A DNA stretch of 34,643 bases, from positions 1 through 34,643 of IMG/VR virus record IMGVR_UViG_3300042885_000661; one strand, given 5' to 3'. This document shows, in pieces, positions 712 through 34,277 of the stretch. The translations under genes were made by a program, and so were the position numbers. Origin of the DNA: a virus. Every line of letters starts with the position of its first letter. Within the stretch, counting starts at the first letter, position 1. The notes below the pieces were generated by a model. That model was not told the DNA's origin. It made no database searches and saw only the letters and a program-made list of their open reading frames with translations.

Positions 712-714
712 GAT

Positions 715-724
715 TGGTAGTTTT
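715..724 (-). promoter_or_regulatory. AAAACTACCA leader motif, 3 nt before start at 711
   Basis: The mRNA-sense sequence is AAAACTACCA followed by ATC and the ATG. The same motif occurs before four other non-structural genes and within the first codons of two more. It is perfectly complementary over 10 nt (AACTACCAAT) to the loop of the hairpin at 20193-20223. Confidence 0.6.
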
Positions 725-5169: not shown

Positions 5170-6680
5170 TGAGTAAAAAGAACAAGCCTAACAACTATTT
5201 TTCGATGCAGATAGGTACTACAGCAGATCAAATCGTTCTGCCTAAGGACTTATACTTCGAAAATTCAGACCCAACACGTGCGCTGTTTGGTTTGTTCGAC
5301 TATTTGCCGTTCGTTCGTGAGGGCGAATTGGAGCAGATTATTTCTCTGATAAATAATTCTCCAACTGCAAAAGCCATCTGCAACAAAATTGCTTACTATA
5401 CTGTAGGTGAAGGATTCTATATTCGCAAGGAAAAGTCTATCCTTGGCGAGAAATCTGCGCAGATTCTGACTCCCGAGCAAAAGAATAAGCTTTGGGCAGT
5501 ATTGTCAAGGCAGAATAGTGATGGAGATAACATCTTAGATATCTGTAAAAAGGCTGCATTTGACTATCAGGCAATTGGAAACGCATTTGTGCAGTTAGAT
5601 GTAGTCCAAGGATTTACTTTCGCTACACACCAAAATATTAACTTTGTAAGACCATTCAGAAGCTCTGACCTAAAGACTCGCTTTTATGGTATCTCAGCGG
5701 ATTGGGCAATTCTACCTTATGCCGGAAGAAGTAGGCATCAAGAAAGATATGAGTTATCAAATGTTCCTGCAACAGTAAAAGATATCGCTGCCTATCCTCG
5801 CTTTACTGATGAACTTGATGAACTTTTAGACTCAGACTATGGTCAAGGTGCAAACATTGCCGACCTTTACGGATTCGATAAGTCTTCAATGCTACAACTT
5901 AAGCAGTATAGTCCTTTGATGTACCAATGGGGAGTGCCGAACTGGATAGGTGCCAAACATTTTGTTGAGCTTGAATACAGAATTGCTAAGTTCAATGTTT
6001 CAAAATTCCGCAATGGCTTAACTACATCGGGTTTATTACAGTTGTTTGGTGACTTAACTCCCGAACAGCAGAAAGATTACCAGGAAGCCTTCATGGCTAA
6101 GATGACTGATACTGGTAATGACTTCAAAGTATTGTTTCAAATCCTTGAGAATCCCGAATTAAAAGCCAATTGGGTACCATTCGAGCAGTCATATAATGGC
6201 TATTTTATGGAATTGTCAACCATCGCAAAGGATAGAATAGCTACAGGCTTTGAAGTTCCATTAAGTTTAGTACAAGCGACACCAGGACAGCTTGGCAATA
6301 ATCAGCAAATACGTTCTGAGTTCGAAATCTTATATCGAACAAAGATTTATGATATACAGCAAACAATCTTGAGAGGCATTGTTAAGCCATATTTGGATAC
6401 AGTTGCTGAGACAGAAAATATGGAGTTCTTAAAATCTGTAGAACTTGATTTTATAAACATCGTTCCGGTAAGCTTTGCAGGAGAACTCGAAGTGAATATG
6501 CTTCTCACTAAAACTGAAGGAAGAGAACTTCTTGGTTATGGCCCAACATTGGAGCCTGCAATCAAGGAAGAGCAGATTCAAGCAGAAGCAGATGCCGAAG
6601 TGGATGCAGAGGAAGGAACAGATAAGCAGCAAAATATATTGGCAAAAATTAAAAACTTACTCGGATGGCGCAATTCATAA
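5169..6680 (+). CDS. Portal protein
   Basis: The 503-aa product has the size and order of a portal protein, the dodecameric ring at the packaging vertex. Early residues (NNSPTAKAICNKIAYYTVGEGFYIR, about 61-85) resemble the portal wing, and GNAFVQLDVVQGF follows. The C-terminal third holds ATGFEVPLSLVQA, GNNQQIRSEFEILYRTKIYDIQQ and LLTKTEGRELLGYGP, which fit the stem, crown-side helices and the conserved arrangement of phage portals. The start overlaps the previous stop by one base (TAATG). The gene follows the capsid and tube genes rather than the terminase, an unusual order. The acidic C-terminus overlaps the next gene by 16 nt. Confidence 0.8.
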   Translation: MSKKNKPNNYFSMQIGTTADQIVLPKDLYFENSDPTRALFGLFDYLPFVREGELEQIISLINNSPTAKAICNKIAYYTVGEGFYIRKEKSILGEKSAQILTPEQKNKLWAVLSRQNSDGDNILDICKKAAFDYQAIGNAFVQLDVVQGFTFATHQNINFVRPFRSSDLKTRFYGISADWAILPYAGRSRHQERYELSNVPATVKDIAAYPRFTDELDELLDSDYGQGANIADLYGFDKSSMLQLKQYSPLMYQWGVPNWIGAKHFVELEYRIAKFNVSKFRNGLTTSGLLQLFGDLTPEQQKDYQEAFMAKMTDTGNDFKVLFQILENPELKANWVPFEQSYNGYFMELSTIAKDRIATGFEVPLSLVQATPGQLGNNQQIRSEFEILYRTKIYDIQQTILRGIVKPYLDTVAETENMEFLKSVELDFINIVPVSFAGELEVNMLLTKTEGRELLGYGPTLEPAIKEEQIQAEADAEVDAEEGTDKQQNILAKIKNLLGWRNS

Positions 6681-12086: not shown

Positions 12087-12397
12087 ATTGAATCCTCCTC
12101 GATATCAGAGTCATAAGCCTCCATTAAAGTTTCAGAAAATAAGGTTTGAAGTTCAGATTTAGTACGCTCAAATAAGATAGCAGCCTCTTCGATTGTAACA
12201 GACTTGTCATAGTCAGTAATAAAGATGTCATCAAGTTCAAAATATGCATCATAATCGGGTTCCATTTGACATCCGTAGCTATCTCTTGAGCCTCTTTCCT
12301 CATCTACAAATGTTCCGAATAATTTTACATAAACTTCGTTAGTTGGGAAGTTGTCGCATTCCATAAAAATGCCTGTGCTGAATTTGTTGTTTGTCAT
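12077..12397 (-). CDS. Acidic protein of unknown function, 106 aa
   Basis: The start at 12397 (MTNNKFSTGIFM) follows an AAAACTACCA leader motif by 4 nt. The protein is strongly acidic, with many Asp, Glu and Tyr residues (EPDYDAYFELDDIFITDYD) and an acidic end DSDIEEDSIWF. Strong acidity in a small early phage protein can mean DNA mimicry, but that is a guess. There is no membrane segment. It is first of a three-gene unit ending with SSB. Confidence 0.65.
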   Translation of the reverse strand: MTNNKFSTGIFMECDNFPTNEVYVKLFGTFVDEERGSRDSYGCQMEPDYDAYFELDDIFITDYDKSVTIEEAAILFERTKSELQTLFSETLMEAYDSDIEEDSIWF

Positions 12398-12401
12398 AAC
12401 T

Positions 12402-12411
12402 TGGTAGTTTT
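12402..12411 (-). promoter_or_regulatory. AAAACTACCA leader motif, 4 nt before start at 12397
   Basis: The mRNA sense is AAAACTACCA, then AGTT, then ATG. Same motif and position as at 715-724 and 16596-16605. Confidence 0.6.
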
Positions 12412-12427
12412 AATTATTAATGATGCA

Positions 12428-12435
12428 CAAAGATA
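12428..12435 (-). promoter_or_regulatory. Possible -7 promoter element TATCTTTG
   Basis: The minus-strand TAnnTTTG element lies about 30 nt before the start at 12397. No good -33 TTTG is found upstream, so it is weaker than the element pair at 12582-12612. Confidence 0.4.
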
Positions 12436-12615: not shown

Positions 12616-14343
12616 TTACAGAACATTTTTTAAATTTATTTGCACGCATCTACCAATTAACCCTGCTGCAAATCTCGTTGTTGCCTTTTTCTCTGCTCCT
12701 TTATGCCTTAAAAGTACAGTTGAATAGGAGATTGCCCAAGGAGTTCGACTCAAAATCATCTTAACCCAGGTAGATGTATTCAGAATAAGCAAATATTTTT
12801 CTTTGTTATCTTGAACTACTTTCAATCCTAATCGCATCAGCCTCTCATTGGCTGCATTCTGTTTAATTTTGGCTTGTGGGTCATATTCTGAAGCATATTC
12901 GACCAACTCTCCAACTGTTACAGTTCCAATAAAATCGCCTTCAATCCTTGTTTCATTCTGTAAAATCGTTTGTAGGCATCTTTCCTCATCAGTCAAATCT
13001 GATATTTGATTCAATAGTCCTTTCATTTTAAGCAGTTCAATAGATTCCTCGCAAGCCTGCTCAAATGTAACAACATCATCATTCCAGGTGTGCCACCAAC
13101 CGCCCATTAGCGCACCAAACTGATCACCAGTTGCCCGATCTCCAACAGCCTCGGTAATAACTTCCGTAAATATTGCAATCGATTGCAAGATGTTTGGTAC
13201 AAGATTAACCATCCTGGCTATAAATCGAACGCCAAAATCTTTGTTAATTACTTCTTTCTTTTTCTTGTTCAGAATATTAAACTTCTCAGCATCTTGATGC
13301 TTTGCAAGTTCGAAGACTGTAAATCTTCGCTTGTCGCTGTCATTGACTAACTGCGGATTGATACTCACAAACAAGAAACAACTGCGGATAAAATAGTCCG
13401 TTGCTTTTCCATCCTTGCCGCCCTTCGGAATGGCCGGAGACTTCTCTGAGCTTCCTGCTCTTGCAAGTGCAATAACTTCCTGCATTCTCCTTGCTGCATT
13501 CTCATCGTTACCTTCCGACTCGTCAATCGTCACTGGCATAGCATCAGAATTAAGTTTTTGCCTTATCGCTGCCTCTGTCGCTGCTGTTCCTTGAGCATTG
13601 ATTGAAAATTCTCCTAAGACCTGGTGAATAATCTGTTCCAAGACATAGGTTTTTCCATTTCCACGAGGGCCTGTAATCCAACAATGAGGCCTCCAGGACA
13701 ATGCTCCGCAAATCGGTGCTATCGCTAACCATCCTGCTAACATTTTACCATCTGCTTCGGTCTGCCAATTGAGAGAAGACAAGATTTTTGTAAGCAGGGA
13801 ACATTCGATTCTATCCATTGAATTTTCTATCGGAATGCGGATGTTCTTTCGCATCTCATAAGTAAACTCCGTTTCAATGCTGCCAAGGTTATATCGAATC
13901 TTTTCGCTGAGTAACTGCATCCCGGAATGAAAGATAATTCTATCGGATTCTTTCCAGGCACCTCGACCTCTGATATTTTGTAAATCAAAATATCCTACTT
14001 TATTACAGCATTGAACTAAAAAGTTCGAGATGTTCTCCGACTTTGCAAAAACTTCATGATCCCAAAACTCCAATGGTGCCAAAGCAGTAACGTGCTGCTT
14101 GGTGAACTTTGCAGTTGAAAATGCCAATATCGCATTGCTTGTCTTTGAATAAAAGTAAAACCTTTGCGCTCTCGATTCTGTATCCCATCCAAGTGGTTTG
14201 AAGTATCCACCTATGAAGCCTCTTGCATCAGTAGTTACAGAGTTATCCGGTGCTGGCTCTGCTTTTGGCTTTCGGGTTCTTTTTGCTGGTAGTGGTGTTA
14301 CATCTTCGGGATTGTTATCCCATTTGATTGGTAGTTTTGTCAT
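12616..14343 (-). CDS. Primase/helicase-type ATPase for replication, 575 aa
   Basis: The central ATPase has Walker A GPRGNGKT (225-232), an acidic Walker B-like VTIDESEG (271-278), sensor SINPQ (328-332) and an arginine pair DKRRFT (338-342). The phrase WRPHCWITGPRGNGKT and the segment with GTAATEAAIRQKLNSDAMP resemble phage DUF927/D5-type helicase domains. The N-terminal 200 residues have no clear primase metal motif, so primase activity is uncertain. It probably unwinds DNA at the phage origin as a hexamer. The start at 14343 overlaps the previous stop as ATGA. Codons 3-6 contain the AAAACTACCA motif. The C-terminus (about 450-575) looks like a small winged-helix or regulatory domain. Confidence 0.75.
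   Translation of the reverse strand: MTKLPIKWDNNPEDVTPLPAKRTRKPKAEPAPDNSVTTDARGFIGGYFKPLGWDTESRAQRFYFYSKTSNAILAFSTAKFTKQHVTALAPLEFWDHEVFAKSENISNFLVQCCNKVGYFDLQNIRGRGAWKESDRIIFHSGMQLLSEKIRYNLGSIETEFTYEMRKNIRIPIENSMDRIECSLLTKILSSLNWQTEADGKMLAGWLAIAPICGALSWRPHCWITGPRGNGKTYVLEQIIHQVLGEFSINAQGTAATEAAIRQKLNSDAMPVTIDESEGNDENAARRMQEVIALARAGSSEKSPAIPKGGKDGKATDYFIRSCFLFVSINPQLVNDSDKRRFTVFELAKHQDAEKFNILNKKKKEVINKDFGVRFIARMVNLVPNILQSIAIFTEVITEAVGDRATGDQFGALMGGWWHTWNDDVVTFEQACEESIELLKMKGLLNQISDLTDEERCLQTILQNETRIEGDFIGTVTVGELVEYASEYDPQAKIKQNAANERLMRLGLKVVQDNKEKYLLILNTSTWVKMILSRTPWAISYSTVLLRHKGAEKKATTRFAAGLIGRCVQINLKNVL
14329..14338 (-). promoter_or_regulatory. AAAACTACCA motif inside the first codons of the primase/helicase gene
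   Basis: The mRNA-sense motif spans codons 2-6 of the gene starting at 14343 and continues ATC, giving the same 10-nt AACTACCAAT complement to the loop at 20204-20213 as the 711 leader. Confidence 0.45.
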
Positions 14344-16329: not shown

Positions 16330-16592
16330 AGATTAAGTGTACTTCTATGTTGAAATATAATGTCTCTGACTTCACGATAATATTCGTAAACAGCTTTTGT
16401 GTGATTTGATAATACATCTGGACTTATTAGGACAGAGATTATATCACTAACGGCATTAGATGCATGGTGAAATGCAATCATCTTTTGGTATTCAGTTGCT
16501 TTTTCGAAATCTACTACTGAATATTTTTCAATAAATTGTTTTGCCTTTTCTTCAGGAGAAACGAGGTGCAATGAGCTTTGTAATGTTGACAT
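16326..16592 (-). CDS. Small helical protein, 88 aa
   Basis: The start at 16592 (MSTLQSSLHLVSPEEKAKQF) lies 3 nt after an AAAACTACCA leader motif and behind a near-consensus promoter at 16631-16661. It is therefore first in the long leftward replication unit that runs to 12616. The product is mostly helical and has a His-His pair (IAFHHASNAVSDII). No family recognised. ATGA overlap with the HNH-like gene. Confidence 0.75.
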   Translation of the reverse strand: MSTLQSSLHLVSPEEKAKQFIEKYSVVDFEKATEYQKMIAFHHASNAVSDIISVLISPDVLSNHTKAVYEYYREVRDIIFQHRSTLNL

Positions 16593-16595
16593 AAC

Positions 16596-16605
16596 TGGTA
16601 GTTTT
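16596..16605 (-). promoter_or_regulatory. AAAACTACCA leader motif, 3 nt before start at 16592
   Basis: The mRNA sense is AAAACTACCA, then GTT, then ATG. It matches the sites at 715-724 and 12402-12411 in sequence and position. Confidence 0.6.
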
Positions 16606-16630: not shown

Positions 16631-16661
16631 CAAAAGTATAATAAAATATTATTATCTCAAT
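16631..16661 (-). promoter_or_regulatory. Promoter for the replication operon
   Basis: On the minus strand ATTG (16661-16658), 19 nt, then TACTTTTG (16638-16631), one mismatch to the consensus. It overlaps the 3' end of the SF2 helicase gene and starts a unit beginning with the gene at 16592. Confidence 0.6.
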
Positions 16662-18279
16662 ACTTTTTGTAACTTTTTTTAAAATTATTTTTGTTTTGAA
16701 CTTGTTTCCAACTGTAAAATGAGTTCCAGGCCTTGTCGATTGCAGACTGAAAATCTGTTTCGCAAAGTGTTGTAGCGTTGATTTTATATTTGTTATTAAT
16801 TGTTTTTACAAAATCCATAATTTCTTTTATTAACAATTTTTCTTTCATAAGTGGTTCTAATTTTTTATTAGCATCTTTAACTTCTTTCAATACCCTACTT
16901 TCAAAAATACGCTTTACCCAGTAGTCTTGATGTCCTTTTCTTTCCTTGTACTGCCATAGTTCTTCAAATGTTATACATTCCCATTGTTCTTTCTGCTTGG
17001 CTCCTTGCTGCATATTCAAGAAATCATCCAACGACCTATTATCTTTGACAGCAACTGCATTCTCAATTTTCTTTTGTTCTCTCTGTTTTGATTCAGGTAT
17101 CAATCCGCATTCAGGGCAGCACTCCTCAGTCTTTTCAAAAACAGCATAACAGCCTTGGCAAACATTGTAGTTATCTTCGACTTCGTTCTTCTTTTTATTT
17201 TTCTTCTTGATGCCATTTAAATCCCATACACGAGGTGTGAGCGGATGCATATGCTTTACCATATTGTTCACGTGATCTAAAATGATGCACTTGTCTTTGC
17301 CCTCGCAAGGTCTCAATCCCCTGCCGACTATCTGAAGATACAAACTTAGCGATGCCGTTGGTCTGAGCATACCTACTACAGCAACAGCAGGAATATCTGT
17401 TCCCTCGCTGATTAGGTTACAAAATGTAACCACCTGGATAGTTCTATCCGCAAGACCTTTGAATATCCTATCAACTTCCTCATCTTTTTGCTCTCCGTGA
17501 ACTGCCTCAGATGTATATCCTGCATTCCTAAAAGTTTTGGCCATCTCCTGTGCGTGGTGAATCGTGGAGCAGGAATAGATTGCAGGCTCACCATCGGCAA
17601 GTCTTTTGTATTCCTTGACTATGTCTCCGCAAATCGCAGCATCGGTCATTACATCAGATATCTCTCCCAAGTCATATTCTCCAAAATTGTTTTGCTTTAA
17701 GTTATCCAAAGCTTCAATCTTCTTGAACATATAATATGCCGGCATAACAAGATTACCCATCTGAATCAGTTCCGCAATCGGAGGCCCAAGTACCATCTGT
17801 TGAAACATATCTCCAAGACCTTTGCCATCCAATCGCCAAGGTGTTGCAGTAACACCAAGCATAAAAGTTTCTGAATAGTATTCCATTATTGCTTTCCAAG
17901 TTCCTGCACTTGCATGATGAGCCTCATCAATAATAATAAGGTCAGGTACCGGAACTTCATCCAATCTGTTCTTCAATGTCTGAACACTGCAAACCTGTGC
18001 AGAATGTTGGTAGTTTTTTTTGTGTCCTCCTGCAATAATTCCGTGCTGCAAGTTATACTTATTGCATCGCTCAGAGATTTGCCTTACAAGGTTCTTTTTA
18101 TGCACCAGGAAGAATACTTTCTTATTTCGACTCATCGCCTGCTCTGCGATATGAATGAAAGTTTCAGTCTTGCCTCCACCAGTTGGAAGAACAAACAATA
18201 CTCTTTTGCTTCCTTGCTTGAAATGGCCTCGAATAGAATCTACTGCATCGGACTGGTATGGTCTAAGGTTTACACTCAT
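16657..18279 (-). CDS. SF2 DEAD/DEAH-box helicase, 540 aa
   Basis: Helicase motifs are complete and in order: LRPYQ (Q-like, 5-9), Walker A LPTGGGKT (31-38), DEAH (118-121), TAT (144-146), a motif V-like EGTDIP (292-297) and motif VI QIVGRGLRP (316-324). A four-cysteine zinc site (CQGC at 374-377 and CPEC at 388-391) lies in a basic region after the helicase core. The C-terminal 140 residues are helical and basic and look DNA-binding. The architecture is the ComFA/UvrB-like type common in phage replication clusters, with likely DNA-dependent ATPase activity and unwinding or remodelling. The start overlaps the HTH gene by 17 nt. The mid-gene AAAACTACCA at 18008-18017 is probably chance. Confidence 0.9.
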   Translation of the reverse strand: MSVNLRPYQSDAVDSIRGHFKQGSKRVLFVLPTGGGKTETFIHIAEQAMSRNKKVFFLVHKKNLVRQISERCNKYNLQHGIIAGGHKKNYQHSAQVCSVQTLKNRLDEVPVPDLIIIDEAHHASAGTWKAIMEYYSETFMLGVTATPWRLDGKGLGDMFQQMVLGPPIAELIQMGNLVMPAYYMFKKIEALDNLKQNNFGEYDLGEISDVMTDAAICGDIVKEYKRLADGEPAIYSCSTIHHAQEMAKTFRNAGYTSEAVHGEQKDEEVDRIFKGLADRTIQVVTFCNLISEGTDIPAVAVVGMLRPTASLSLYLQIVGRGLRPCEGKDKCIILDHVNNMVKHMHPLTPRVWDLNGIKKKNKKKNEVEDNYNVCQGCYAVFEKTEECCPECGLIPESKQREQKKIENAVAVKDNRSLDDFLNMQQGAKQKEQWECITFEELWQYKERKGHQDYWVKRIFESRVLKEVKDANKKLEPLMKEKLLIKEIMDFVKTINNKYKINATTLCETDFQSAIDKAWNSFYSWKQVQNKNNFKKSYKKY

Positions 18280-18451
18280 TTTCTATTTTTTTTAATTCAT
18301 GTTCGATTTTTTCAATAAATTCTAATGTTTGTGGTTCTTTTCTGCTCCACTTATCCAAGGTCTGCTTGTGGATTCCTGTTCTACGGCATAGCTCTGCAAT
18401 GCTAATTCCAATCTTGTCGGCACGTTGTTTAATTCTTTCGTAAGTCTTCAT
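18263..18451 (-). CDS. Small HTH transcriptional regulator (Cro/CI type), 62 aa
   Basis: The chosen start (18451, MKTYERIKQRADKIG) is the only one that fits a Cro/CI family protein. Residues 15-40 (GISIAELCRRTGIHKQTLDKWSRK) form a clear helix-turn-helix. A longer frame to 18526 would run through the promoter. At 62 residues it is a minimal DNA-binding protein without a separate dimerisation domain. It is first in the leftward helicase unit and faces the exonuclease gene across overlapping divergent promoters (18491-18518), which it may repress. No lysogeny genes accompany it. Confidence 0.8.
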   Translation of the reverse strand: MKTYERIKQRADKIGISIAELCRRTGIHKQTLDKWSRKEPQTLEFIEKIEHELKKIENECKP

Positions 18452-18490: not shown

Positions 18491-18518
18491 CAAAAGTAAT
18501 AATATTTTATTATCTTTG
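18491..18518. promoter_or_regulatory. Overlapping divergent promoters in a dyad
   Basis: A minus-strand -7 element TACTTTTG (18498-18491) and a plus-strand -7 element TATCTTTG (18511-18518) face away from each other 12 bp apart. The 28-bp block is a near-perfect inverted repeat with AT-rich arms. Each promoter's upstream element would overlap the other's -7 box, so the two should compete. It is a plausible operator for the adjacent 62-aa HTH protein. Confidence 0.6.
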
Positions 18519-18546: not shown

Positions 18547-18554
18547 AACTACCA
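18547..18554 (+). promoter_or_regulatory. AACTACCA leader motif overlapping start codon at 18554
   Basis: The last A of the motif is the A of the ATG. This is a plus-strand gene, so the motif follows the mRNA sense rather than a fixed DNA strand. Confidence 0.55.
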
Positions 18555-19309
18555 TGACAAATCAAGAGTATCACTCAAAAACAGATTTTTTAAGCAAAAG
18601 CTTACTGGATCAGATTCGCAAATCTCCTGCTCATTTAAAAGCATATATCGAAGGAGAAAAGAAAACAGTTAGTTCAGCGATGAACTTCGGAAGCATTGTG
18701 CATTCTGTACTATTCGAACAGGATAACTTCGCAATTATGCCGAGCTGTGACCGCAGAACCAAGGAAGGTAAACTTCTTTATGAGGCATTCTTAGAAGATG
18801 CTCAAGGTGTTGAACTGATTGTTACAGAAGACCAACACGAACAAGCTTTAAAAATCGCAGCAGCAGTTCTACAGCATCCAAAAGCAGCAGCACTACTTAA
18901 AGATGGACAAGCAGAAGTGCCGGTATTCGGAGAAATCGAAGGTGTTAAATTCAAATGTAAACCCGATTTTCGTAATACCAAGTTCAATGTATTGCTTGAC
19001 CTTAAGAGCACTAACGATAGCTCACCATCAGAGTTCGCAAAATCTGTTTGGAAATACAGATATCACGTACAGGCAGCACTTTATATGGACTTGACAAAAG
19101 CAGAAAGGTTCTTCTTTATTGCTGTAGAAAAAGAATCTCCGTTCAATGTTGAGGTGTACGAACTTGACCAGGATGCAATACAGAAAGGCAGAGAAGATTA
19201 CCTGGCAGATATCGCAACTTACAAAAAATGTGTCGAAACAAACAACTGGCACGGATACACAGAAGACAAAAGCATCAATATTCTTTCACTCCCTAAATGG
19301 GTTAAATAA
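18554..19309 (+). CDS. RecE/exonuclease VIII-like PD-(D/E)XK nuclease, 251 aa
   Basis: The product has the RecE-type core: SAMNFGSIVHSVLFE with His50, an acidic pair in KCKPDF (Asp138), VLLDLKST with Asp149 and Lys151, and a downstream YHVQAALYMD with Gln173 and Tyr177. These are the catalytic and structural residues of phage exonuclease VIII domains, which resect double-strand ends 5' to 3'. The opening NQEYHSKTDFLSKSLLDQIRKSPAHLKAYIEG is also typical. It is paired with a single-strand annealing protein immediately downstream, giving a recombination module. It is driven from the divergent promoter region at 18511-18518. Confidence 0.85.
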   Translation: MTNQEYHSKTDFLSKSLLDQIRKSPAHLKAYIEGEKKTVSSAMNFGSIVHSVLFEQDNFAIMPSCDRRTKEGKLLYEAFLEDAQGVELIVTEDQHEQALKIAAAVLQHPKAAALLKDGQAEVPVFGEIEGVKFKCKPDFRNTKFNVLLDLKSTNDSSPSEFAKSVWKYRYHVQAALYMDLTKAERFFFIAVEKESPFNVEVYELDQDAIQKGREDYLADIATYKKCVETNNWHGYTEDKSINILSLPKWVK

Positions 19310-19315
19310 CTACCA
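19308..19315 (+). promoter_or_regulatory. AACTACCA leader motif, 2 nt before start at 19318
   Basis: The mRNA sense is AACTACCA, then CA, then ATG. A second copy (AAAACTACCA, 19332-19341) lies inside codons 5-8 of the same gene, so this gene carries two copies within 34 nt. Confidence 0.6.
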
Positions 19316-19317
19316 CA

Positions 19318-19845
19318 ATGTCAAATATCACAAAACTACCAACATTCCAAGAACTGATTACAGATTCTGAAGACAGCCTCAAGCAAAATGCATTAACTGT
19401 ACTGCTAAATCAAGACCCTCCGAAGGCTTGGTTAAGCGAACATCCAATGATAAAAGGCTATCGTTACATCTCAATTGAGAAAATTGAGTACCTTTTAACA
19501 CGAATTTTTACCAAATGGTGGGTTGAAGTAAAAAACGTGCAAGTAGTCGCAAACAGCGTTGTAGTCACGGTTAGACTCTTTGTAACGAATCCAATCACAA
19601 ATGAAATAATGTTTCAAGATGGCATCGGTGCAACAGCAATTCAAACAGACAAAGGAGCAGGCGCAACAGACTGGAATGCAGTAAAGACCGATGGTGTACA
19701 GAAAGCAGCACCCGCAGCTGAGACCTATGCAATAAAAGACGCAGCAGAGAAATTTGGCAAGATTTTCGGCAGAGATGTGAGCAGAAAAACAACAATGGAT
19801 TACAATCCGTTACTCAAAAAAAGCGATTTCAACGACTTTGTTTAG
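19318..19845 (+). CDS. Single-strand annealing protein, Rad52/Sak-like (putative)
   Basis: The gene follows the RecE-like exonuclease by 8 nt, the usual place of an annealing recombinase. The 175-aa protein has HPMIKGYRYISIEKIEYLLTRIFTKWWVEV, then a beta strand pair (VQVVANSVVVTVRLFV), then DGIGATAIQTDKGAGATDWNAVKTDGVQKAAPAAETYAIKDAAEKFGKIFGRDV. The central beta sheet, followed by a conserved alanine-rich helix ending in KxFGRD, is reminiscent of Rad52/Sak-type proteins, where the helix often ends LGxx(L/F)GR. The family is inferred, not certain; an Erf-like fold is an alternative. It would pair complementary strands coated by the phage SSB. Confidence 0.65.
   Translation: MSNITKLPTFQELITDSEDSLKQNALTVLLNQDPPKAWLSEHPMIKGYRYISIEKIEYLLTRIFTKWWVEVKNVQVVANSVVVTVRLFVTNPITNEIMFQDGIGATAIQTDKGAGATDWNAVKTDGVQKAAPAAETYAIKDAAEKFGKIFGRDVSRKTTMDYNPLLKKSDFNDFV
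19332..19341 (+). promoter_or_regulatory. AAAACTACCA motif inside codons 5-8 of the annealing-protein gene
   Basis: Same 10-mer and similar location just after the start codon as at 14329-14338. Confidence 0.4.
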
Positions 19846-19901: not shown

Positions 19902-20133
19902 TGTAACAGCCTTTTTTTTTGTAACGTTTACTGTTTCTTTTAACTTATTGATTCTCAATACGTGTAACAATGTAACGATTGTAACGGGAAAATATATATA
20001 TATATAAGAGAATTTATTATTATGCTATATGTATAGGTATATTATTGTTACATATGTTACATTATTATAATTATATTATTATTAAGTAGTTAGGTGTAAC
20101 AAAATTGCGTTACAGTAGTGTTACGGTTGTTAC
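19902..20133. repeat. GTAAC/GTTAC repeat cluster with AT-rich core, candidate replication origin
   Basis: Eleven copies of GTAAC (six forward at 19903, 19921, 19964, 19972, 19981 and 20096; five reverse as GTTAC at 20047, 20056, 20109, 20120 and 20129) lie within 231 bp. Many extend to TGTAAC. Forward copies are mainly left and reverse copies mainly right of an AT-rich core (about 19990-20045, with an AT dinucleotide run). There is no gene here. Iteron-like sites flanking an unwinding region beside recombination genes fit an origin; a binding array for a regulator is the alternative. Confidence 0.6.
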
Positions 20134-20134
20134 A

Positions 20135-20170
20135 TTTGATTTAGGTAAAAAAAAGACATATTTTTGCACT
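20135..20170 (+). promoter_or_regulatory. Late promoter for the terminase/tail operon (copy 2 of core)
   Basis: TTTG (20135-20138), 20 nt, then TATTTTTG (20159-20166) is close to the Bacteroidota consensus. Its core ACATATTTTTGCACT (20156-20170) is identical to 1281-1295. Transcription would start near 20173. Confidence 0.7.
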
Positions 20171-20359
20171 TGTTAAGTCATAGGGGTTTTTAGGGGGAAG
20201 GTTATTGGTAGTTCCCTTCCTCCTTTTTAAAATCTTCGATTTAAGACACTTTTTTTTCTTTTTGATAGTAGAGTACCACTTTAGAAAGATAATTGCTTAG
20301 AAGTGGTAAAGAATGTTAAATAAGATAGGATTAGTATTAAAATAATACAAAATAATAAG
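20171..20359 (+). promoter_or_regulatory. Structured leader of the terminase operon
   Basis: About 190 untranslated nt hold three hairpins: the terminator-like one at 20193-20228, TACCACTT/AAGTGGTA (20274-20281 with 20301-20308, 19-nt loop) and GTATTA/TAATAC (20334-20339 with 20343-20348, loop AAA), which ends 12 nt before the start codon. No reading frame of note lies here. The length and structure suggest control of read-through or translation. Confidence 0.55.
20193..20228 (+). terminator. Terminator-like hairpin with TTGGTAGTT loop (attenuator or small-RNA end)
   Basis: GGGGGAAGG (20193-20201) pairs with CCTTCCTCC (20215-20223; one G-U) around a 13-nt loop and is followed by five T (20224-20228). 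The loop contains ATTGGTAGTT (20204-20213), the exact antisense of the AACTACCAAT in leaders or early codons of other phage genes. It lies about 20 nt after the predicted transcription start. Confidence 0.65.
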
Positions 20360-32716: not shown

Positions 32717-32975
32717 AAAGGAATTCGCTCGCAGATTGGCAGAGCGCATAGAGCAGATGCAAAATATCACAGCTGAGTCTCTGTCTGAGATGCTTATTAG
32801 TTCCGGTATTCTCTCTGAGCGCAGGGTAATCCAGTACTGTGCCATATGTGAGTTCTATGATATGATAGGTCAGAAAACAAAAACGCAGACAATTAAGGAA
32901 CTGTCTGCGAAGTATAGTGTATCTGAAAGAGTTCTTATTGAGTTAACAGGTCGTGAACGGAGGTTTTCTGTCTAA
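32694..32975 (+). CDS. Small HTH-like protein at the end of the late operon, 93 aa
   Basis: The start at 32694 (MVSTENIKKEFARRLAERIEQ) overlaps the previous gene by 23 nt. An ATG at 32685 is possible; a still longer frame to 32610 would duplicate the upstream gene in another frame. The C-terminus has KELSAKYSVSERVLIELTG, which looks like a helix-turn-helix. The 3' end overlaps the end of the sigma-factor gene by 41 nt in convergent orientation, so transcripts from both sides would be antisense to each other there. Function unknown, possibly DNA binding. Confidence 0.6.
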   Translation: MVSTENIKKEFARRLAERIEQMQNITAESLSEMLISSGILSERRVIQYCAICEFYDMIGQKTKTQTIKELSAKYSVSERVLIELTGRERRFSV

Positions 32976-33696
32976 GCTTGTGTAGTGCTTGGAGATGCAG
33001 CTGTCTAATTCTTTCTTGTGAGTAGTTTAGTCTCTCTGCAATTTGAAAGGGCCTCAAAGGGAAGTCTACTAAGTACATATTTTCAATAATAAAGTATTCT
33101 TCTTTGCTAAGAGTTCTAAGAATTATCTTCATTTTTTTACTCATGCTTAGATTTTCTATTACTCTTGCAGTATCCTCATCGGATGCGAACTGCTTCTCTA
33201 TTTCATCTTCATCATTACTATCATTTTCAATGCTCATCACTTTCGGATAGTGGTGAAAATCTCTAATAAAGTATTTCGGGAAAAGATCCATTTCTTTAAT
33301 TTCTGCTTCATCGTACTTCGCTTTGAGTTCCAGGTAAGTTCTTATTAATTGATAGTTCTTTGCAGGAATCCTGATTGTGCTTTGCGTATCGTAAATGTAG
33401 GTAAGTATTGCCTGGCGAATATAATAAACAGCAAAAGAAATAAATTTAAATCCTCGTGTAGAGTCAAATCTATTAGCTGCCTTTATCAATCCGATCATGC
33501 CTTCTGAAATAAGGTCTTTAATGTCGGTTGCGCTATTATTGATTTTCTTGGCTTCCGATACTACGAAAAGCATATTGTGTTTTATGAGTTGTTCGGGTGT
33601 TGCTGTAGCTTCGGCATCAGGATGCAGCGGAGGATATTTTGAGGCTTCTTTTAAAAAGTGCTGTAGTGATTTATTGGTGAATCTTATTTCGTTCAT
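32935..33696 (-). CDS. Phage sigma-70 family RNA polymerase sigma factor, 253 aa
   Basis: Region 2 is plain: LIKHNMLFVVSEAKKI, then DLISEGMIGLIKAANRFDSTRGFKFISFAVYYIRQAI (61-97), with the aromatic-rich melting and -7 recognition helix. A region 3-like IRIPAKNYQLI follows at 108-118. Region 4 covers about 188-243, with the DNA-binding helix-turn-helix in RPFQIAERLNYSQERIRQLHLQALHKLRQ. There is no region 1. It would replace or compete with the host primary sigma factor and direct host RNA polymerase to phage promoters. It is last in the leftward operon, coupled to the lipoprotein gene by ATGA. Possible targets are the identical late promoter cores at 1281 and 20156. Confidence 0.9.
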   Translation of the reverse strand: MNEIRFTNKSLQHFLKEASKYPPLHPDAEATATPEQLIKHNMLFVVSEAKKINNSATDIKDLISEGMIGLIKAANRFDSTRGFKFISFAVYYIRQAILTYIYDTQSTIRIPAKNYQLIRTYLELKAKYDEAEIKEMDLFPKYFIRDFHHYPKVMSIENDSNDEDEIEKQFASDEDTARVIENLSMSKKMKIILRTLSKEEYFIIENMYLVDFPLRPFQIAERLNYSQERIRQLHLQALHKLRQKTSVHDLLTQ

Positions 33697-34277
33697 AGGT
33701 CGTACTGGTAGAGTTTATAAGTCTCAATGACTTTAATCAATGATTGGGCATAGTGCGGTGCCGTTGCGTATCCTGCTTTCTTTAGCCCATATGCCCACTT
33801 TTTATATTCGGTGCGCTTAAGTTTACGCAAGTGAGAATATCTTTCCATACAGAGTAATTTTGAATGGTCACGGTAGGAGAACCAAGCAGATTTATAAACT
33901 TGAAATCTGTCTCTTGGTGTGTCATCCCGGTAAACTGCAAATTTCCCTTTACCTCGGTGTTTTATTCCGAAGTGGTTGTTATGTTTGCGTGATAGGTCTG
34001 ACCTTCCTGCGCTGCTTTCAAGAATGCCTTGTGCGAGCTTTATGCTTACTGGTATGTTAAAGAGTTTAGCTTCTTGCTTTGCAGTTGCTAAGAAGCGTTT
34101 TATGTAAGAATCAACGTGAGGTGGTATAGTTGATTTTGTTTTGAGATTGCAGGGCGTGGCATAACTGATTGTTTCATCTTTGGAAACATCAATAATTTGG
34201 TAGTTCGGTTCGGGTTCAGATTGGTGTGCCTTGCATCCGATGATAAGTAGTGCTGTTAAGAATAGTAGGTTTTTCAT
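33693..34277 (-). CDS. Glucosaminidase-like (GH73/FlgJ type) lipoprotein, 194 aa
   Basis: Residues 1-15 form a lipoprotein signal peptide with lipobox LIIGC (Cys15), so the mature protein should be anchored in a membrane. Residues about 55-190 are a GH73-like domain: AKQEAKLFNIPVSIKLAQGILESSAGRSDLSRKHNNHFGIKH, with Glu87 as the catalytic residue, then AWFSYRDHS and YATAPHYAQSLIKVIETYKLY. It cuts glycan strands of peptidoglycan. A phage-coded lipoprotein hydrolase outside the lysis cassette is unusual; it could help lysis, remodel the wall early or interfere with other phages. It is followed by the sigma factor. Confidence 0.85.
   Translation of the reverse strand: MKNLLFLTALLIIGCKAHQSEPEPNYQIIDVSKDETISYATPCNLKTKSTIPPHVDSYIKRFLATAKQEAKLFNIPVSIKLAQGILESSAGRSDLSRKHNNHFGIKHRGKGKFAVYRDDTPRDRFQVYKSAWFSYRDHSKLLCMERYSHLRKLKRTEYKKWAYGLKKAGYATAPHYAQSLIKVIETYKLYQYDL

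Follow-up and report, generated by a model that had tools for sequence, protein, structure and literature searches.

A hairpin loop in the late leader of a phage with Bacteroidota-type promoters is complementary to a tag shared by early gene starts

In the virus record IMGVR_UViG_3300042885_000661, analysed over its whole stretch of 34,643 bases (the window), the loop of a hairpin in the 5′ leader of the late genes is complementary to a short tag, AACTACC(A), that stands 0-5 nt ahead of the ATG in five non-structural genes (starting at 711, 12397 and 16592 on the minus strand and at 18554 and 19318 on the plus strand). Comparative sequence evidence from this and related uncultured phages makes an RNA pairing between loop and tag well supported, and we give a somewhat better than even chance to the reading that the loop acts in trans as an antisense element of the late leader and blocks translation of the tagged early genes.

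The window carries a phage gene set (RecE-like exonuclease, Rad52-like annealing protein, helicase, primase, SSB, terminase, portal, head protease, tape measure and endolysin), and its promoters are of the Bacteroidota type, TTTG/TAnnTTTG; the Bacteroidota promoter consensus is TTTG/TANNTTTG (PMC6847099). Gene starts were taken from simple ORF rules, and the early or late class of a gene was assigned from gene content and promoters. From the elements of the late promoter, the transcript is expected to start near position 20171. The late region contains the following features.

20136-20166, plus strand: late promoter of the Bacteroidota type, TAttTTTG at 20159-20166 with TTG 20 nt upstream; conserved in relatives
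20193-20228, plus strand: hairpin in the late 5′ leader with a 9-bp stem and a short T-run; recognized by its fold and by compensated stem changes in relatives
20202-20214, plus strand: antisense loop TTATTGGTAGTTC, 13 nt, with the recognition segment at 20204-20213; core invariant in most relatives and changed jointly with the leaders in L012/L013
20360-22073, plus strand: first late genes, 3′ of the hairpin; a likely small terminase subunit, judged by its position, and the terminase large subunit

The hairpin consists of the 5′ arm GGGGGAAGG (20193-20201), the 3′ arm CCTTCCTCC (20215-20223) and a T-run at 20224-20228, and its loop contains ATTGGTAGTT, the complement of AACTACC(A). The fold and the motif counts confirmed the starting observation of a sequence-only reading of this DNA, namely that a hairpin with a 13-nt loop antisense to early gene starts begins about 20 nt after the predicted start of the late promoter. 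The folding energy of −16.1 kcal/mol is only mildly below that of shuffled sequences (z −1.1), and the predicted unpaired probability of the recognition segment is 0.57. Neither the window nor any of five related loci had a match when scanned against Rfam. Between the hairpin and the terminase genes sits a second inverted repeat, TACCACTT...AAGTGGTA (20270-20315), which is partly conserved and has variants in relatives. Immediately 5′ of the late promoter (19905-20135) there are many TGTTAC/GTAACA repeats, also present in the clade and in sister genomes; they are possible candidates for binding sites of a late activator.

The tags of the five genes, a candidate extra target and the early promoter elements are located as follows.

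713-722, minus strand: tag AACTACCAAT of the gene starting at 711; the ortholog is tagged in G001, G002 and G004
12401-12409, minus strand: tag AACTACCAA of the gene starting at 12397; every one of the 21 family members found, that of the window among them, has it
16596-16603, minus strand: tag AACTACCA of the gene starting at 16592; kept though the gene differs between lineages
18547-18554, plus strand: tag AACTACC(A) of the RecE-like exonuclease gene at 18554
19308-19315, plus strand: tag AACTACCA of the Rad52-like gene at 19318, which has no promoter of its own directly upstream
14327-14336, minus strand: candidate extra target, the 10-mer AACTACCAAT in codons 3-6 of the primase gene starting at 14343
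18511-18518, plus strand: early promoter −7 element TATCTTTG, ahead of the RecE/Rad52 genes
16631-16638, minus strand: early promoter −7 element TACTTTTG, ahead of gene 16592
12428-12435, minus strand: early promoter −7 element TATCTTTG, ahead of gene 12397

AACTACC is the most over-represented 7-mer of the 45 gene leaders (5 observed vs 0.075 expected). Outside the hairpin it occurs 11 times in the window, and five of these copies lie 0-7 nt before a start in the sense orientation (P = 1.9e-9). The 10-mer AACTACCAAT is found exactly three times (0.08 expected): in the loop, before 711 and in codons 3-6 of 14343. Thus the full-length copy reported before 711 is real, although it ends 1 nt and not 3 nt before the ATG, and both the copy inside the primase gene and the matches of 8-9 nt reported before 12397, 16592, 18554 and 19318 were found again. 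The primase stretch AAACTACCA is kept in all relatives covering it, L012 included, and the primase gene may be a further target of the loop. No structural gene start of the window carries the tag, as the sequence-only reading had also stated, and none does in the relatives; it is likewise absent from some early starts, those of SSB and of a small Cro/C1-type helix-turn-helix gene (18263-18451, minus strand) divergent from recE.

Duplexes between the loop and the five window leaders have calculated energies of −10.2 to −12.2 kcal/mol, and the tags are mostly unpaired in the predicted leaders (0.63-0.93). On the mRNA the tags span about −12 to −1, a stretch that is covered by the 30S footprint. 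When the loop was shuffled, 11 of 1000 versions (about 1%) matched six leaders of the window genome as well as the real loop. For this reason, loop complementarity on one genome is the weaker evidence, and it is the relatives that make it strong.

We scored hairpins without using the known motif. In phage loci of at least 9 kb, all hairpins with a stem of at least 7 and a loop of 6-16 were collected, and each was scored by how many gene leaders of the same locus have a 7-mer that is complementary to its loop. Each of the ten representative clade genomes has about 20 such hairpins, of which exactly one matched three or more leaders, and this was always the late-leader hairpin. The 113 other loci yielded 2,599 hairpins; five of these matched three leaders and none matched four; a second control set of 63 distant loci (at least 6.5 kb) gave 5 of 2,878 with three or more, that is, 10 of 5,477 hairpins in the 176 control loci together. 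Since the clade genomes are related, the ten matches document conservation and not ten independent origins. Taken with the placement of the tags, the scan and its controls show that complementarity to the start regions exceeds chance, as expected of an antisense RNA.

An ordinary terminator or leader hairpin, complementary to the leaders by chance or by shared ancestry, would be compatible with the unremarkable folding energy, with the shuffled loops that equal the real one and with the non-independence of the ten matches. It does not fit the contrast between the control hairpins and the clade, a loop that stays fixed while the stem and the surrounding leader change, or tags ahead of at least nine unrelated genes, and we regard it as very improbable.

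The relatives were collected by IMG/VR scans with TerL, Rad52, primase, helicase, RecE and the leader pattern, which yielded 26 contigs of one clade; a 27th clade fragment covers none of the informative leaders. The promoter and the hairpin are present in every clade contig covering that stretch. The RNA between them, 5′ of the loop, is divergent, and the stem varies with compensation (GGGGAAGG/CCTTCCCC, GGGGGAAGG/CCTTCCTCC, GGGGAAAGG/CCTTTCCCC and GGGACAGG/CCTGTCCC, and in addition a paired A-T insertion), while the loop core TTGGTAGTT is fixed with the exception of L012/L013. The recognition segment is thus exposed in a structure that is kept by compensating changes, another property of antisense RNAs.

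In these phages, at least nine early protein families that are unrelated to each other have the tag ahead of their starts: the 12397 family (21 sequences, counting the one in the window), RecE (16), Rad52 (15), an inserted gene of 130 aa, a gene of 97 aa, the 711 family, a glucosaminidase (in relatives) and, at the 16592 position, different families (65-67 aa and 88 aa; 82 aa in L012) with the tag retained when the gene is exchanged. The near-complete relative G001 has seven tagged starts, all in sense orientation and none structural. G002 has six starts with AACTACC and a seventh with AACTACA; the leader of its 67-aa gene (contig 011339) departs to ACTACAAAAG, which still has a 7-nt match to its ancestral loop. 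On both genome strands, the tag is invariably in the sense orientation of the mRNA, with the loop antisense in every case. Ahead of genes 12397 and 16592, conservation extends past the part complementary to the loop (AAGTT), which may point to a second role of the leader there.

The placement of the tags bears on two further explanations. In one, the tag is a DNA site of a phage regulator that also binds the late leader, and the complementarity merely reflects the two strands of one site. Three tags do lie about 20-30 nt past early promoters, the late copy lies about 30-40 nt past the start of the late promoter, and the Cro-like protein would be a candidate regulator. However, the position of the tag is tied to start codons, also at Rad52 and 711, which have no adjacent promoter, its orientation tracks the transcript, and the shared stretch stops at the stem, which is itself maintained by compensating changes; for these reasons a DNA-binding site is quite unlikely. 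In the other, the tag is a positive translation element that replaces the Shine-Dalgarno sequence; the late hairpin would then have no connection with it or act as a weak decoy. Bacteroidota mRNAs indeed lack Shine-Dalgarno sequences (PMC6847099), and tagged starts tend to have intergenic gaps upstream instead of overlapping the preceding gene. But the host favours A at −3, −6, −12 and −13 (PMC6847099) and not a C-rich core, and such an element leaves unexplained why all ten genomes have a complementary loop and why the loop and leaders of L012 changed together. We consider it improbable to much the same degree as the DNA site.

Outside the clade the search gave the following. In a sister family whose Rad52 is 76-80% identical, the leaders and downstream regions read contain neither the tag nor the hairpin. 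In L019-L024, whose TerL is more distantly related, the promoter-proximal hairpins are different ones (e.g. with the loop TTGTAAGGGAAG); the leaders read carry no complementary tags, and the loci long enough for the hairpin scan gave no match at the promoter-proximal hairpin, which leaves no sign of the system in what was read and scanned there. Among isolated phages there were no near-identical records, and TerL and Rad52 retrieved distant ones only; host genomes gave no TerL relative and one Rad52 relative, in a Bacteroidetes MAG. The bare 14-mer GGTTATTGGTAGTT has more than 100 matches in the viral collection, which by our estimate is about the chance level.

The altered loop of L012/L013 is TTGTAGTTTAT, with the changed stretch UUGUAGUUU (also given as TTGTAGTTT). 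All three tagged leaders of this lineage lack the second C (ACTACC to ACTAC[A/T]), whereas nearly all other contigs have ACTACC: in L012/L013, the RecE leader reads ACTACA directly before the ATG, and those of Rad52 and of the gene at 5817 read AAAACTACT in the same place. A 7-nt match to the altered loop is found in these three leaders and in no others, and 313 of 20,000 shuffled L012 loops (1.6%) matched three or more. The pairing is weaker (−6.8 to −7.2 kcal/mol), and two of the three leaders would pair equally with the ancestral loop. Because it is a single event with weaker pairing, we take the joint change as supportive, not decisive. The covariation that the sequence-only reading had proposed to look for in related phages thus came out favourably, although only one lineage has a changed loop, and independent variation of loop and leader, its refuting condition, was not seen; the comparative evidence supports its idea of RNA-RNA pairing between the late-leader loop and early start regions; the additional helicase, primase and RecE scans gave no further loop variant.

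Two candidates were rejected. A second L012 hairpin with TTGTAGTTT (about 5513-5553) has a 20-nt loop inside a coding frame and is probably a coincidence. GGUAGUC is also a universal stretch of 16S rRNA, in helix 24, but pairing of the tag with 16S rRNA was dismissed: this part of helix 24 is engaged in the rRNA structure, and the tag has changed in L012, where 16S rRNA would have stayed the same.

By the usual description of an intrinsic terminator, a G+C-rich stem followed directly by a T-run, the hairpins of the window and of the L012 lineage fit well, whereas other lineages with an unchanged loop have a weak AATTTT, GATTTT or ATTTT. The short RNA of about 55 nt that had been proposed to end at the hairpin is thus supported only in part, by the window and the L012 lineage. 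Where an unchanged loop is followed by such a weak T-run, it may often work as part of the complete late mRNA, at its 5′ end. The T-run also bears on the reverse direction of the same pairing, in which the tags of early mRNAs would titrate or melt the late hairpin and so time late transcription or translation. The pairing evidence is symmetrical and the hairpin is terminator-like in the window and L012; however, the poor T-run beside an unchanged loop makes melting of a terminator, raised earlier as an alternative, less likely, and tags right at many start codons fit the mRNA start, and not the hairpin, as the regulated side. We judge this direction unlikely.

Antisense control of early translation by the late leader would work as follows. 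AACTACC(A), 0-6 nt before the start codon, would label five to seven early or non-structural genes. Firing of the late promoter would produce the hairpin RNA, either as a short product ending near 20228 or as the 5′-terminal part of the complete late mRNA, and the loop would base-pair with the tags over 7-10 bp across the ribosome entry site, lowering early-gene translation while the untagged structural genes would still be made. We infer that the hairpin RNA is produced and pairs in the cell, as we infer the direction of regulation, repression of early translation being the likeliest effect. Because the late transcript carries the loop and the tagged genes are non-structural, a shut-off of early translation at the onset of late expression is the simplest reading. 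A loop annealed over the tag stretch should hinder initiation. Bacteroidota initiate translation without Shine-Dalgarno sequences, and unstructured leaders and adenines at −3, −6, −12 and −13 tune the process (PMC6847099).

The broader interpretation, that early genes of this phage family bear a shared leader tag of 7-10 nt as an RNA address in hosts without Shine-Dalgarno sequences, has in our view slightly less than an even chance. If true, any gene gaining the tag would fall under a single late-transcript loop, and late onset would be coupled to early shut-off without a protein. Phage early-to-late switches are usually explained by proteins such as repressors, sigma factors and antiterminators; a late leader silencing a tagged early set would be a protein-free switch. 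To our knowledge, it would be the first multi-gene antisense regulon within a Bacteroidota phage, and it would show that antisense control of initiation can be built without a Shine-Dalgarno sequence to block.

The closest known systems are phage antisense RNAs. In c4 RNA of P1/P7, an RNA loop pairs with the ribosome-binding region of an mRNA and blocks its translation (PMC12197685). The late-leader loop would likewise pair with start regions of phage mRNAs, but c4 controls the ant gene for immunity, whereas here one loop in a late operon leader faces five to seven separate starts, those of recE, rad52, glucosaminidase (in relatives) and genes of no assigned function. No homology to c4 was found by sequence or structure; Rfam at gathering thresholds gave no match in the window, L007 and L012, and a c4 model may be absent from it. 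In Stx phages, the terminated leader of the late promoter PR′ gives rise to StxS, which pairs in trans with mRNA start regions (PMC7873438); lambda 6S RNA is grouped with it here. The putative RNA would have a similar origin, with promoter and hairpin present and the T-run weak in several lineages. StxS differs in being made in lysogeny, bound by Hfq and processed by RNase E, with stx1B and rpoS as targets, and it is not known to control early genes of its own phage that share a tag. The sar RNA of P22 and the OOP and aQ RNAs of lambda exert antisense control of phage gene expression (PMC12197685), each on one target gene, whereas the loop described here is encoded apart from several presumed targets. 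VpdS and other trans-acting phage sRNAs influence several mRNAs; VpdS is Hfq-dependent and aimed at host and phage mRNAs, and no shared leader tag is described in that source (PMC12197685). Since our putative RNA is deduced from DNA and would have several separately encoded tagged targets, we assign the hairpin to neither c4 nor StxS.

The window also encodes a sigma-70-type factor with regions 2 and 4 (32935-33696, minus strand), which is conserved in G001, G002 and G004 and adjoins the glucosaminidase gene (33693-34277). Its leader has a weaker match to the loop with G-U pairs (−11.1 kcal/mol) that is not conserved in relatives.

Finally, the sister phages have an element of about 100 nt directly 3′ of the Rad52-like gene (L089, L105, L061, L059, L066, L081 and other loci), with its own TATATTT(G) promoter, two hairpins with mutually complementary loops and a terminator T-run. 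The complementary loop sequences are GGCACTAC/GTAGTGCC, GCAACCAC/GTGGTTGC, GACTTCAC/GTGAAGTC, GGCTTCAC/GTGAAGCC and GGTCTCAC/GTGAGACC; over nine sequences, all eight loop-loop pairs are kept in 100% of cases, and five of the eight have changed on both sides. Rfam gave no match in the scanned loci that carry the element, and it looks like a new kissing-loop RNA family.
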